Shown: piece by piece, positions 47,240 to 52,072 of the stretch
Position numbering within the stretch: position 1 is the first letter of the stretch
How the letters are laid out: each line of letters opens with the position of its first letter
Assembly (NCBI GenBank): GCA_017999985.1
Contig: JAGNKU010000009.1
Span: forward strand, 62,001-126,000
Length of the DNA: 64,000 nt
Direction of reading: 5' to 3'
DNA from: Phycisphaerae bacterium
GTDB taxonomy: Bacteria; Planctomycetota; Phycisphaerae; UBA1845; Fen-1342
Made by a program: the position numbers and the translations under genes
The notes under the pieces: model-generated
Database searches by the model: none
Told to the model about the DNA's origin: nothing
Seen by the model: only the letters and a program-made list of their open reading frames with translations

Positions 47240-47250
47240 CTATTTTGGGG
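47234..47250. repeat. REP at the RAYT stop codon
   Basis: AGCCACCTATTTTGGGG contains the RAYT stop codon (TAG on the minus strand, 47240-47242). It is inverted relative to the element upstream of the gene. Confidence 0.6.
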
Positions 47251-47926
47251 CTTCCTTCCTCACCTTCGGTCGCCCCACCGGCCGCGGACGCAGAATCTGG
47301 CCCAGCTTGCGCTCCAGCTTCGACAGCCACTTGTCCGTCGCCAGCGGGCGGCCCGTGTGCACACACCGCCGCAGCCGCGCGATCTCCGCGTCGGTCAGCG
47401 GTTTGGCCAGTTGCGCCCGCCAGCGCGCCGGGGTCCAGTCCGCCGCCCACCCCGCCAGGTCCAATAGCCCGCTCGCGTCCGGCCCCACGCCCACGTGCGC
47501 CGCCGCACTCGACCATGCGTACCGCCACGGCTTGCGCACCAGCCGTGCCCGCAGCGGATTGCACTCGACATAACGCAGCGCCGCCCACGTGTGCGGCTCG
47601 TCCAAGGCCGCCGAATAGAAGCGCCCCTGCCACAGATGCCCGCTGCGGCCGTGCAGGCGATTGATGTACTGCGAATACAGGAAGTGCGTGCGGCCGATCG
47701 CGGCGGCCAGCGCAACCTCGTCCGGCGGCACGGCGACCACGTGCACGTGGTTCGTCATCAGGCAGTAGCCGAGGACGCCCACGCCGGCGGCCTCGCAGCG
47801 GTCGTGCAGCAGGTCCAGGTAGGTCCGGCGGTCCTCATCGACGAAGAACACATCCTGGCGGTTGTTGCCGCGCTGGGTGACGTGATGCGGGCAGCCGGGC
47901 ACGACGATGCGGGCAATCCGTGGCAT
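47240..47926 (-). CDS. REP-associated tyrosine transposase (RAYT, Y1/HUH)
   Basis: A 228-residue single-strand transposase related to IS200/IS605 TnpA. It starts MPRIARIVVPGCPHHVTQRGN, a typical RAYT opening. The HUH metal site is MTNHVHVVAV near residues 57-66. The Tyr-containing helix is LYSQYINRLHGRSGHLWQGRFYS, and VECNPLRARLV follows. RAYTs move or maintain REP palindromes. Inverted copies of a GGTGGCTGTCCC-type element lie immediately on both sides, and two more are within 5 kb. The basic C-terminal tail is long. A leaderless promoter lies directly upstream. Confidence 0.9.
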   Translation of the reverse strand: MPRIARIVVPGCPHHVTQRGNNRQDVFFVDEDRRTYLDLLHDRCEAAGVGVLGYCLMTNHVHVVAVPPDEVALAAAIGRTHFLYSQYINRLHGRSGHLWQGRFYSAALDEPHTWAALRYVECNPLRARLVRKPWRYAWSSAAAHVGVGPDASGLLDLAGWAADWTPARWRAQLAKPLTDAEIARLRRCVHTGRPLATDKWLSKLERKLGQILRPRPVGRPKVRKEAPK

Positions 47927-48054: not shown

Positions 48055-49842
48055 CTACTGCGGAATCGCCGTCGTGCCGCTGCCGGCCGGCGCCGTGGTC
48101 GGCGGCCGCGCCGGTACGAGCGACGCGTCCCGCGCCGTCGGCCGCAACGAGCCCGGTGTCACCGGCGCCGCCGTCGGCGTCGCGGTCGGGGCGCCCGGCG
48201 TCGCCTGCCCGCCCATCGCGAACACCGGGATGGTCACCACGGGCACCGCCGGATCATCCGTCTTCAACGTCACCTGCACGGCCCTGCCGCGCGGCGGCGT
48301 GTAGCCGGTCGGCACGTTCAGCACCACGATCTCCTGCCCGTTCTGCTCTTCGATACTCACCTTCAGCTCTTCGGCGTTCACGCTCGACTCGACCACGTGT
48401 CCGGGATTGTCATCATCCCAGTTCAGCCGCGCCACCAGCCGCAGATCCGACGCCGCCGCCCCGCGCAGCACGAACCGCTGCGGACTGACCTGCAGGCGCG
48501 GCGCGATGTTCGCCGTCACCAGCAGGCTCTCGTTCGCCCCTTCCGGAATGCCCGTCTTGAGCTGCATGTTGCCCCGCAGCATGCCGTTCGGCCACGGCGG
48601 CTCGATCGTCACGTCCAACTCATACTTCTCGCCGGGCTCGATCTCCCGAATCTCCGCCTTAATCTGCGGGTTGCCCGTCGAGAGCACCTCCGGCTTGATC
48701 GGCCCCGCGTCGCCGCGCGAGATCTTCACCGTGTTCTTCTGCGCCGGGTAGCTCCGCTTCACCTGTCCGAACAGCACGTTCTCCGGCTCGCACTTCAGCG
48801 CGGTCAGCACCTTCGCCACGCACTCCAGCGTGACCTTCGCATTCGCGCGATCATTGGTCTCCACGAACACGCTCTTCGTGACCTGGCCACGGCGGTTGCC
48901 GGTCGGAACGTTGATGACGACTTCTTCGGTTTGCCCGGGCTGAATCATTCGGTCAGACTGACCGATAATGCTCATCCCTCAGCCCTTTTTCAGGCGTATC
49001 GCCAGCGGCGCCTGACCCTCGTTGCTGATCGCGAACTTGAACTCCGCCGCCTTCCCCTGCCACACGCCGTCCGACGTGATCTTCTTCTCCTTCACCGCGA
49101 ACTTCGGCTGCGGCTGATCCTCCGGCGGCGGCGTCAGATCGACCGGCTGACTCGGCACCGTCGGGCCGCAGCCGGCCTTCTTGTCCTCGCCTTCCGCCGG
49201 CGGGTTCGGCCCCATCACGGCCGGCGCGGACGATGGCGGCGCCACCTGCTTCTTGGACGCGACCGGCGCGGGACGCGTGGCGACCGTAGGCGCGGCCGGC
49301 GTCTGCTCGGCCTTTTCCTTCTGCGCCGCGGTGACCGCCGCGCGAATCATCTCCGCCAGCGCCTCGCGGTCCGCATCCGACATCGGCTTGCCATCCTCGG
49401 GCGGCGTGAACGTCACCGGCTGGTCCGCAGTGGGTGCCGGCGGCCTCGGCGCCGGCGTTGGGGCGGGCGCCGGTGCCTGCGGGGTGGGCGTCACCGCCGC
49501 CGCCAGTTGCGTCGGGGTACGCGTTTCGGCAACCGGCTCAGACTTGTCAGCCACCAGTGCAAACTTCTCCGACGCCGGGGTGAATGCCGCCGGCGTCGCG
49601 GACGCCTGAGCGGGCTCCTGCGGTGCCGGCGCGGGGGCTGGTGTCACCGCCTCCGTCGGCGCGGCCGCGTCAGTCGCCACCGCCGTCTGCTCCGCCGGCG
49701 CGGGCGCCGCTGCGGTCTCGGTGCCGCTCTCACTCCTGCGCGTCTCCGCGCAACCCACCAGAAACGCCGCCAGCACGACCGCAGCGGTCAACCACCGCGC
49801 GCGACCTGACTGCGTTAGTCTCGTTTTCCCTGCTGCTGTCAT
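48055..49842 (-). CDS. DUF1573-type lipoprotein with in-frame TGA, candidate selenoprotein
   Basis: Read through a single TGA (48981-48979, codon 288), the frame gives a 595-residue lipoprotein. The signal ends in LAAFLVGC. Residues ~30-245 are Ala/Pro/Thr-rich, with a charged helix near 165-200. From ~255 comes a DUF1573-like domain: PKFAVKEKKITSDGVWQGKAAEFKFAISNEGQAPLAIRLKKG, then the TGA, then GMSIIGQSDRMIQPGQTEEVVINVPTGNRRGQVTKSVFVETND. The family has a CGC motif at that spot, and the TGA replaces its first Cys. Two or three further beta domains follow. Without readthrough, the domain is cut in two. GAGGA precedes the ATG at 49842. Nonsense mutation and reinitiation at the ATG after the TGA are the alternatives. 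Confidence 0.78.
48937..48978 (-). promoter_or_regulatory. Candidate bacterial SECIS element after the TGA
   Basis: Immediately after the TGA the message folds into a long hairpin. CGGTCA pairs with TGACCG around the loop GTC. Below it CATT pairs with AATG, then TGAG with TTCA (one G-T and a bulged A), then GGG with CCC. About 17 pairs form, with a 2-nt AT bulge and an A/G mismatch. The loop begins 20 nt after the TGA and its first base is G, which fits the bacterial SECIS consensus as I recall it. The tip resembles the AGGUCU loop of E. coli fdhF. Confidence 0.6.
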
Positions 49843-50068: not shown

Positions 50069-52066
50069 TTAGGGTCCTCCGTCCACGCCCGGCCCCTCCC
50101 CGAGCGGTTCAACCACCCAGCAGTCGAGTGTCGCCGGCCGCGTGCACTCCACCGTGAGCGCGTTTTCCCCAGCTTCCAGATTGACCGTCCCGACGGCGTA
50201 CATCCCATCGGCCGCGCGGTCGTAGGTGACGACGCCGATCTGGGTGCCGGTGCCATCCGTCACGGTGATCGTCTCGAACGCGCGCCGCGGATGCACACGC
50301 AGCTTCAGCCGTACGGTCTGCGCAGCGCGGCCCGGAAGTATCATCCGCACCGGCTCGGTCGTCGCGATATGCGCCGCCGCGGCCCCGGAGAACTCCACAC
50401 CCTCCGCGTACTTCTGCTTGACCACGTTGCCCCACCCCGTGCCGACGATCCGCTCCTCGCACTCCACCGCCCCTGGAATCCGCAGCCCGGGCGGTTCCAC
50501 GTCCGCAACCTTGAGCGGCTTGAAAAAGCTCGTCGCACCGGCGGTCGCATACCAGTACACGACGCTGCTGTAGTACGTGTCCCGCGCCCCACCTGCCTGC
50601 AGGTTCTCCAGCGTGAAGCGCACCGACTTCTGAAATGCAATCGCGTCCGCGAGCTGCCAGCGGTATGTCGCGAACTTGCCGTAGGGCCCCGTGCGCGTCA
50701 CGCCCGCGAACGGCCGGACGCCAGCGTGCAGCCCCCCCGCGTCGTCAAAGAAATCCGCCGTGCCCGTGCCGAAATACGACGGGAAGCGTTCCCCATCAAT
50801 CCAGACCTGGTCGTCGCCCTCGCCCCACCACGCGGCCCGCGGGCAGTCCACGCTCAGCACGCACCCCACCAGCCGCCCGCGCCCGCGCGCCTCCAGCAGC
50901 GCATAGTCGCGCCCCTGACACGGATCCTCCCGGCGAAATCGCGCGTGGAAACGCAGCGCGTCGGGCGCCGGCGGGCGCGGATCAGCCTGCATGAGCAGCA
51001 TCAGGCCAATCTTCCGCTTCGCGCTGTTCCCATTCTCGATCTCGACACGCAGCCCGTCCCGAAACGGCATGGGAAACAGGCAGTACATGTAGCGGTTTTC
51101 GCCGCGCCGCCGATCCGGCAGCGGCACCGACAACTCGCGGTCCGTGCCGAGCACCAGGCTGTTGTACGCCACCAAGTCGAAGCCCGCGCCGAAGAAATCA
51201 CACAGCGGCGCCTCGATCGCCGGAGTCTCCTCGCCGTCTGCGTACACCCGCAAGAGGCAGCGTCGGAGCGCATACAGGTCACGCGGGCCGCGCTGGTCCG
51301 TCAGCGCGACGTACAACGCGCGCACCGTCCCCGCCCCGGACAGCGATTCACTCATGGTCTCGCCCGGCCCCAGTTCCTGCTGCACCGCCACCGGGCGCAT
51401 GCGCTGTCCGCCAAAAAGCTGCCCCTCGGTCAACCCGTCACTCAGCGCCTGCCGCACCTCAGCCAGCGCCGCGTCGGCCTCCTCATCGAGCTCGCTCCGG
51501 AAACGCGTCACCGTCGTCCCCGGCGGATAGCAGACCACGTTGATCTGGTAGTACGAGCTGCACTCACGCGCCAGAACCTGGCAGCTTCGGCTGAACCCAA
51601 CCGGAAAATGACAGGTCATCCCCCGTTCAACCAGCGGCGTCTCGAACGGCGGCACCCGGCCGGAGAGCAATTCGTTAAACGCAGCCTCAATCACCGGTTC
51701 GCCGTCCAGCACGAAACGGATGTGCCCGCCGGGATCCGCCGACCACATGCGCGTGATGGCGCCAGGGCCGTCCACCTCCGCCAGCACCTGCCAGCCGTCC
51801 GGCGTCACGCCGCTGAATTGCCCGTGGTCCTCGTTCGCACCCCATCCGGCAATCTCGCCCGCCGCGCCCGCCTGCGAGCGCCGGTCGTAACTGGAAAACA
51901 ACCGTGTCCGTTCGCCCGGCGGAGGCGGCGTGGCGAGCCGCTGCACGTCAATCACGCGTCGCAGCAATTCCGCCTGCGTGATCGTCTCTTGCGCCGCGGC
52001 CACCCGCGCCAGCGCGAGCACAAGGATGCCCAACCCGAGCAGCCGAAATGCCGACTCGCGCTTCAT
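50069..52066 (-). CDS. GH172-like (DUF2961) exported glycoside hydrolase
   Basis: A 665-residue exported protein. The signal peptide is MKRESAFRLLGLGILVLALARVAAA. The N-terminal double jelly-roll has signature blocks: DGPGAITRMWSADPGGHIRFVLDGEPVIEAAFNELLSG and, later, YFGTGTADFFDDAGG. These match DUF2961, recently classed as GH172, whose members act on fructofuranose or arabinofuranose glycans. The C-terminal ~150 residues form an extra beta-domain. It begins 6 bp after the YchF-like gene stop, with a weak ribosome site, so coupling is likely. The true substrate is unknown. Confidence 0.85.
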   Translation of the reverse strand: MKRESAFRLLGLGILVLALARVAAAQETITQAELLRRVIDVQRLATPPPPGERTRLFSSYDRRSQAGAAGEIAGWGANEDHGQFSGVTPDGWQVLAEVDGPGAITRMWSADPGGHIRFVLDGEPVIEAAFNELLSGRVPPFETPLVERGMTCHFPVGFSRSCQVLARECSSYYQINVVCYPPGTTVTRFRSELDEEADAALAEVRQALSDGLTEGQLFGGQRMRPVAVQQELGPGETMSESLSGAGTVRALYVALTDQRGPRDLYALRRCLLRVYADGEETPAIEAPLCDFFGAGFDLVAYNSLVLGTDRELSVPLPDRRRGENRYMYCLFPMPFRDGLRVEIENGNSAKRKIGLMLLMQADPRPPAPDALRFHARFRREDPCQGRDYALLEARGRGRLVGCVLSVDCPRAAWWGEGDDQVWIDGERFPSYFGTGTADFFDDAGGLHAGVRPFAGVTRTGPYGKFATYRWQLADAIAFQKSVRFTLENLQAGGARDTYYSSVVYWYATAGATSFFKPLKVADVEPPGLRIPGAVECEERIVGTGWGNVVKQKYAEGVEFSGAAAAHIATTEPVRMILPGRAAQTVRLKLRVHPRRAFETITVTDGTGTQIGVVTYDRAADGMYAVGTVNLEAGENALTVECTRPATLDCWVVEPLGEGPGVDGGP

Positions 52067-52072
52067 GGCCAC

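Follow-up and report, generated by a model that had tools for sequence, protein, structure and literature searches.

The window (the whole 64,000-nucleotide stretch of Phycisphaerae DNA analysed here) carries on its minus strand, from 49842 to 48055, a reading frame that is open except for one in-frame TGA, at 48981-48979. The TGA is followed by a GGG codon and then by an ATG at 48975, where the second of the two listed ORFs begins, and ordinary translation of the locus yields two ORFs of 306 aa each. Close relatives align across the TGA in one frame, and we read the locus as one gene with the following features.

48055..49842, minus strand: complete frame of the putative selenoprotein, from ATG at 49842-49840 to TAG at 48057-48055; 595 aa, with residue 288 as Sec
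49750..49752, minus strand: Cys31, lipobox cysteine (LVG-C), read from the translation; a lipobox is also present in several orthologues
49168..49170, minus strand: linker Cys225 (KKAGCGP), candidate partner thiol, about 60 residues before Sec
48823..49095, minus strand: DUF1573 domain, residues 250-340, with a PapD/ASH-type Ig fold, from the Pfam match and structure comparison
48979..48981, minus strand: TGA, very probably read as selenocysteine (Sec288); 28 distinct copies share the TGA, and other orthologues have Cys
48934..48981, minus strand: TGA with bacterial-type SECIS region, 48 nt, from a gap-free alignment across orthologues
48949..48965, minus strand: SECIS apical hairpin, 7 bp with loop GUC, from covariation across 27 distinct sequences
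48820..48822, minus strand: Cys341 (Sec+53), second candidate partner thiol; Cys at this column in 16 of 19 aligned sequences

The first-pass annotation had proposed that two minus-strand frames, joined through one TGA and one GGG codon, make up a single lipoprotein, and that the TGA stands within a DUF1573 domain, where the CGC motif has its first Cys; both points are borne out. The lipobox at Cys31 predicts a lipoprotein anchored outside the cytoplasmic membrane, and the protein contains a Pro/Ala-rich linker besides the lipobox and the DUF1573 domain. The Pfam DUF1573 model (PF07610) matches the read-through protein with 42.3 bits (E 7.6e-11), passing the gathering threshold of 26.1, and since the match covers residues 250-340 the TGA lies inside the domain.

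Directly upstream of the gene is a DUF2961 gene (50069-52072, minus strand), as is also the case in the nearest relative, L083; beyond DUF2961 in these two loci, no conserved neighbourhood was found among the relatives compared. An IS200-like Y1 transposase gene (47240-47926, minus strand; Pfam Y1_Tnp, E 4.9e-11) lies just downstream.

The TGA codon in relatives and its downstream hairpin

Relatives were first sought in 61 related genomes, and the best frame of the orthologues found there has exactly one TGA. Among the 19 closest copies, window gene included, the codon aligned to Sec288 is TGA in 17 and TGC in 2; the more remote DUF1573 proteins of the 61-genome set have TGC or TGT at this column, within CGC, and the DUF1573 paralogues of the window's own genome also have CGC there. 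The full 19-row alignment held no sufficiently conserved stretch for the later locus search, and a 6-row subset was used instead. In all, 28 distinct copies, each from the order to which the window belongs, have TGA at the column, and chance is thereby excluded; the expectation of the first-pass annotation, that homologues would have Cys or TGA at this column and that the TGA is not a misread sense codon, agrees with this distribution. Orthologues with another codon read KGCCGSK (L023, L087 and L088), KPCCGAK (L019) or PTCATE (L094). The named records carrying the loci are MAGs of Phycisphaerae, Phycisphaerales or Planctomycetota. Matches at E 1e-60 or better occur in 42 of 114 genomes of the order, most of them holding one TGA, and a plasmid search gave no match. 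Elsewhere, a CGC-type DUF1573 gene (L112; G190:C123:23526-24416) has an in-frame TGA 256 codons past the CGC column.

Folding of the 48 nt from the TGA gave an energy of -18.9 kcal/mol with a z-score of -2.97, and 1 of 200 shuffles was equally good. The minimum-energy fold has 17 pairs with bulges and presents a GUC loop 20 nt past the TGA, in agreement with the hairpin of about 17 bp described in the first-pass annotation; comparison across relatives backs the apical 7 bp only, and the lower pairs are poorly supported. In this apical helix (columns 17-23 with 27-33), 94.2% of cells are paired across 27 distinct sequences, against 19-48% in slid controls, and 16 double changes were observed against 3.4 in shuffles. 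Columns 23-27 alternate between G-C, A-U and C-G, columns 21-29 between U-A and C-G, and columns 17-33 show four pair types; the first base of the loop is an invariant G. One sequence, L024, is off-register, with pairing possible by eye when shifted by one. A covariance model built for the region (R1) has the window site as its sole match in the window's own genome (E 3.7e-9), and is therefore specific to this family and no catalogue of other selenoproteins. An Rfam search of the SECIS region returned subthreshold chance matches only. In two of the Cys orthologues, L087 (3869-3916) and L088 (5762-5809), a stem with a GAA loop is kept at the SECIS position, which may be the remnant of a SECIS in decay since Sec was replaced by Cys.

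The four components of the selenocysteine machinery that the first-pass annotation had suggested seeking are all present in the genome: tRNA-Sec (68.8 bits, anticodon tca), selA (526.5 bits summed), selB (325.6 bits summed) and selD (360 bits; its CGGU includes a probable Sec). A selA match was found in 53 of the 61 related genomes, and because the gene is near universal in the order the co-occurrence of Sec genes with the TGA is non-discriminating; the TGA genomes with no selA match (G018, G021 and G038) are incomplete assemblies (62, 87 and 80%, respectively). The selD gene (L049; G000:C12:103672-104595, minus strand) reads SCGGUAGK and has a downstream hairpin with a GTC loop, as in the window gene; it is therefore a second likely selenoprotein of this genome.

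Reading of the TGA codon

Substitution rates were compared on either side of the TGA in the pair L014 and L017. Downstream of the TGA dN is 0.021 and dS 0.142 (dN/dS about 0.15), over 52 codons upstream dN is 0.044 and dS 0.176, and the 48-nt SECIS region is identical between the two. These values indicate that purifying selection persists beyond the TGA. If the TGA were a genuine stop in a disrupted gene, through an error of sequencing or assembly or in a recently formed pseudogene, the result would be the two 306-aa ORFs of the standard translation; the selection on the downstream frame, together with an identical TGA in so many distinct copies, leads us to reject both, and the maintenance of a paired hairpin also speaks against them, leaving this explanation a negligible probability. 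The ATG that directly follows TGA-GGG in the window would suit translational coupling, in which the TGA is a true stop and a restart at 48975 produces two polypeptides. We consider this very improbable, as the +2 codon of relatives is mostly GTC, TTC, CTC, ATC or ACx and seldom ATG, the break would split one Ig domain mid-way, and some orthologues have Cys in place of the TGA.

It is hardly credible that the TGA is read as a different amino acid through an altered genetic code or a suppressor tRNA, and no evidence in favour of this was found. The adjacent YchF-type GTPase gene terminates with TGA, so this codon still acts as a stop elsewhere; further points against such a reading are that Cys is the alternative residue at the TGA column, that tRNA-Sec has the only tca anticodon among the eight tRNA candidates examined, and that a SECIS is present. 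Taken together, these computational results make it very probable that the TGA codon of the window protein is decoded as selenocysteine. In the mechanism that we propose, the UGA at codon 288 would be translated as selenocysteine by means of Sec-tRNA(Sec) and SelB, with SelB recognising the hairpin 20 nt downstream, and the product would be a secreted, lipid-anchored selenoprotein.

Fold, candidate partner thiols and chemistry

An AlphaFold model calculated with a 13-sequence alignment contains three beta-sandwich domains, with a mean pLDDT of 88. We interpret these as three Ig-like (PapD/ASH-type) domains, present besides the linker, with the Sec predicted to lie in a loop of the first, between the strands formed by residues 46-52 and 57-59 of the model. 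In VIA-align comparisons, where the rows mainly reflect the common Ig arrangement and only the PapD/ASH rows for domain 1 were used, this domain superimposes on the PapD-like domain of HYDIN (2e6j; Z 11.0, rmsd 3.3, 104 residues), OCRL1 (3qbt; Z 10.8, rmsd 2.4, 100 residues) and the ASH domain of CEP192 (6fvi; Z 10.7, rmsd 3.0, 105 residues). The nearest solved structure of bacterial origin, 2qsv from Porphyromonas gingivalis, corresponds to domains 1-2. The fold of the DUF1573 domain is thus of PapD/ASH-type Ig kind and not that of thioredoxin.

The Cys at +2 of the UGC and CGC motifs is absent from all 28 TGA copies of the window clade. As there is no adjacent Cys, the partner thiol is probably either the linker Cys at about -60 or the Cys at +53, and we regard these two as the candidate resolving thiols. 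Most of the Sec orthologues have the +53 Cys, and in many a linker Cys precedes the Sec by 58-69 residues; the copies that lack the +53 Cys (L013, L020, L024 and L149) have the linker Cys. In the CCG orthologues L019 and L023 a Cys stands at -1, and the linker has none at 58-69 residues.

To our knowledge DUF1573 has no known function, and we found no account of one in the literature beyond the selenoprotein reviews and a transcriptomics paper. The placement of Sec in this domain would point to redox or metal chemistry. Remote DUF1573 relatives carry a C-terminal thioredoxin/AhpC-TSA domain fusion, which suggests redox chemistry, and a thioredoxin-like protein may for this reason be the reductant of the Sec site. 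Whether Sec288 acts in the periplasm as a selenol-thiol redox site, paired with a Cys far from it in the sequence, is in our judgement roughly an even call. Binding of a metal or metalloid by the Sec, in place of thiol redox chemistry, is a less favoured alternative that we hold only tentatively; it would fit a protein composed of Ig domains only, with no catalytic fold, and among the bacterial selenoproteins tabulated in PMC13188914 several act in transport or bind metals. The thioredoxin/AhpC-TSA fusions of remote homologues and the Cys at about -60 or +53 that accompanies the Sec weigh against it, though each is compatible with metal binding too.

Relation to known DUF1573 selenoproteins

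The first-pass annotation had treated a DUF1573 selenoprotein as undescribed, which is wrong: a 'DUF1573 domain-containing protein, UGC' is already listed as a selenoprotein in two reviews (PMC9312934, citing its ref 63; PMC13188914, citing its ref 60), from which the UGC motif used here is taken, and NCBIfam holds an 'OS_HP2 family (seleno)protein' entry (NF041425), which from the names we read as the UGC protein of the reviews. The window protein scores 52.4 bits against NF041425 (E 4.9e-14), below the curated cut-off of 100. Its clade as a whole scores about 50, which is no better than the 43-67 reached by the CGC paralogues from the same genome as the window; the six UGC copies scanned score 88-102. 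The motif of the window clade is G-U-G followed by M, V, F, L, I or T (GUG then M in the window), not UGC. A second TGA-containing DUF1573 clade was seen in other planctomycete families (L096-L111), with UGC as its motif (USC in L106); some genomes (G223 and G324) hold two copies of this UGC-clade gene.

In a 78-row tree the window clade (support 100) is separate from the UGC clade (support 95). An AU test of all Sec-type rows as one clade gave p 0.0039, in a quick tree with long branches from which the published OS_HP2 sequences were left out. The single Sec clade being rejected by this test, Sec probably arose at least twice at the DUF1573 position, and from the sequences at hand at least two gains at one position are probably the most likely history. 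A fuller account would be an independent gain of Sec, within Phycisphaerae-type planctomycetes, in a DUF1573 protein of Ig fold, in which the adjacent Cys was lost and a distant Cys of the linker or last strand serves instead, followed by at least one later reversion to Cys with a decayed SECIS stem; we judge the case for this whole sequence of events to be evenly balanced. With DUF1573 selenoproteins as such already known, what is new here is a distinct, apparently independent Sec variant with no adjacent Cys.

The strong matches described above add a further clade of probable selenoproteins, present in a substantial minority of the sampled order. Standard translation splits the clade genes, which are thus likely to be annotated as two fragments, and they do not reach the cut-off of NCBI's curated model of DUF1573 selenoproteins. 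The clade allows Sec that has an adjacent Cys to be compared, in nature, with Sec that lacks one, and the probable reversal from Sec to Cys with a SECIS remnant gives a handle on why organisms retain selenocysteine.

Compared with known systems, domain 1 resembles the ASH/MSP/PapD-like Ig domains of HYDIN, CEP192 and pilus chaperones in fold (Z 9-11, rmsd 2.4-3.3 over about 100 residues); the resemblance is of fold only, as these domains have no Sec and no motif in common with the window protein. The CGC form of PF07610, which includes 2qsv, belongs to the same domain family and has the same fold, but where this ordinary form has CGC the window protein has Sec for the first Cys and lacks the second. 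The OS_HP2 family (NF041425) shares with the window clade both the DUF1573 domain and a Sec where CGC has its first Cys; it differs in having UGC, with the +2 Cys, whereas the window clade is without the +2 Cys, scores at about half the cut-off and groups as a separate, well-supported clade in the quick tree.
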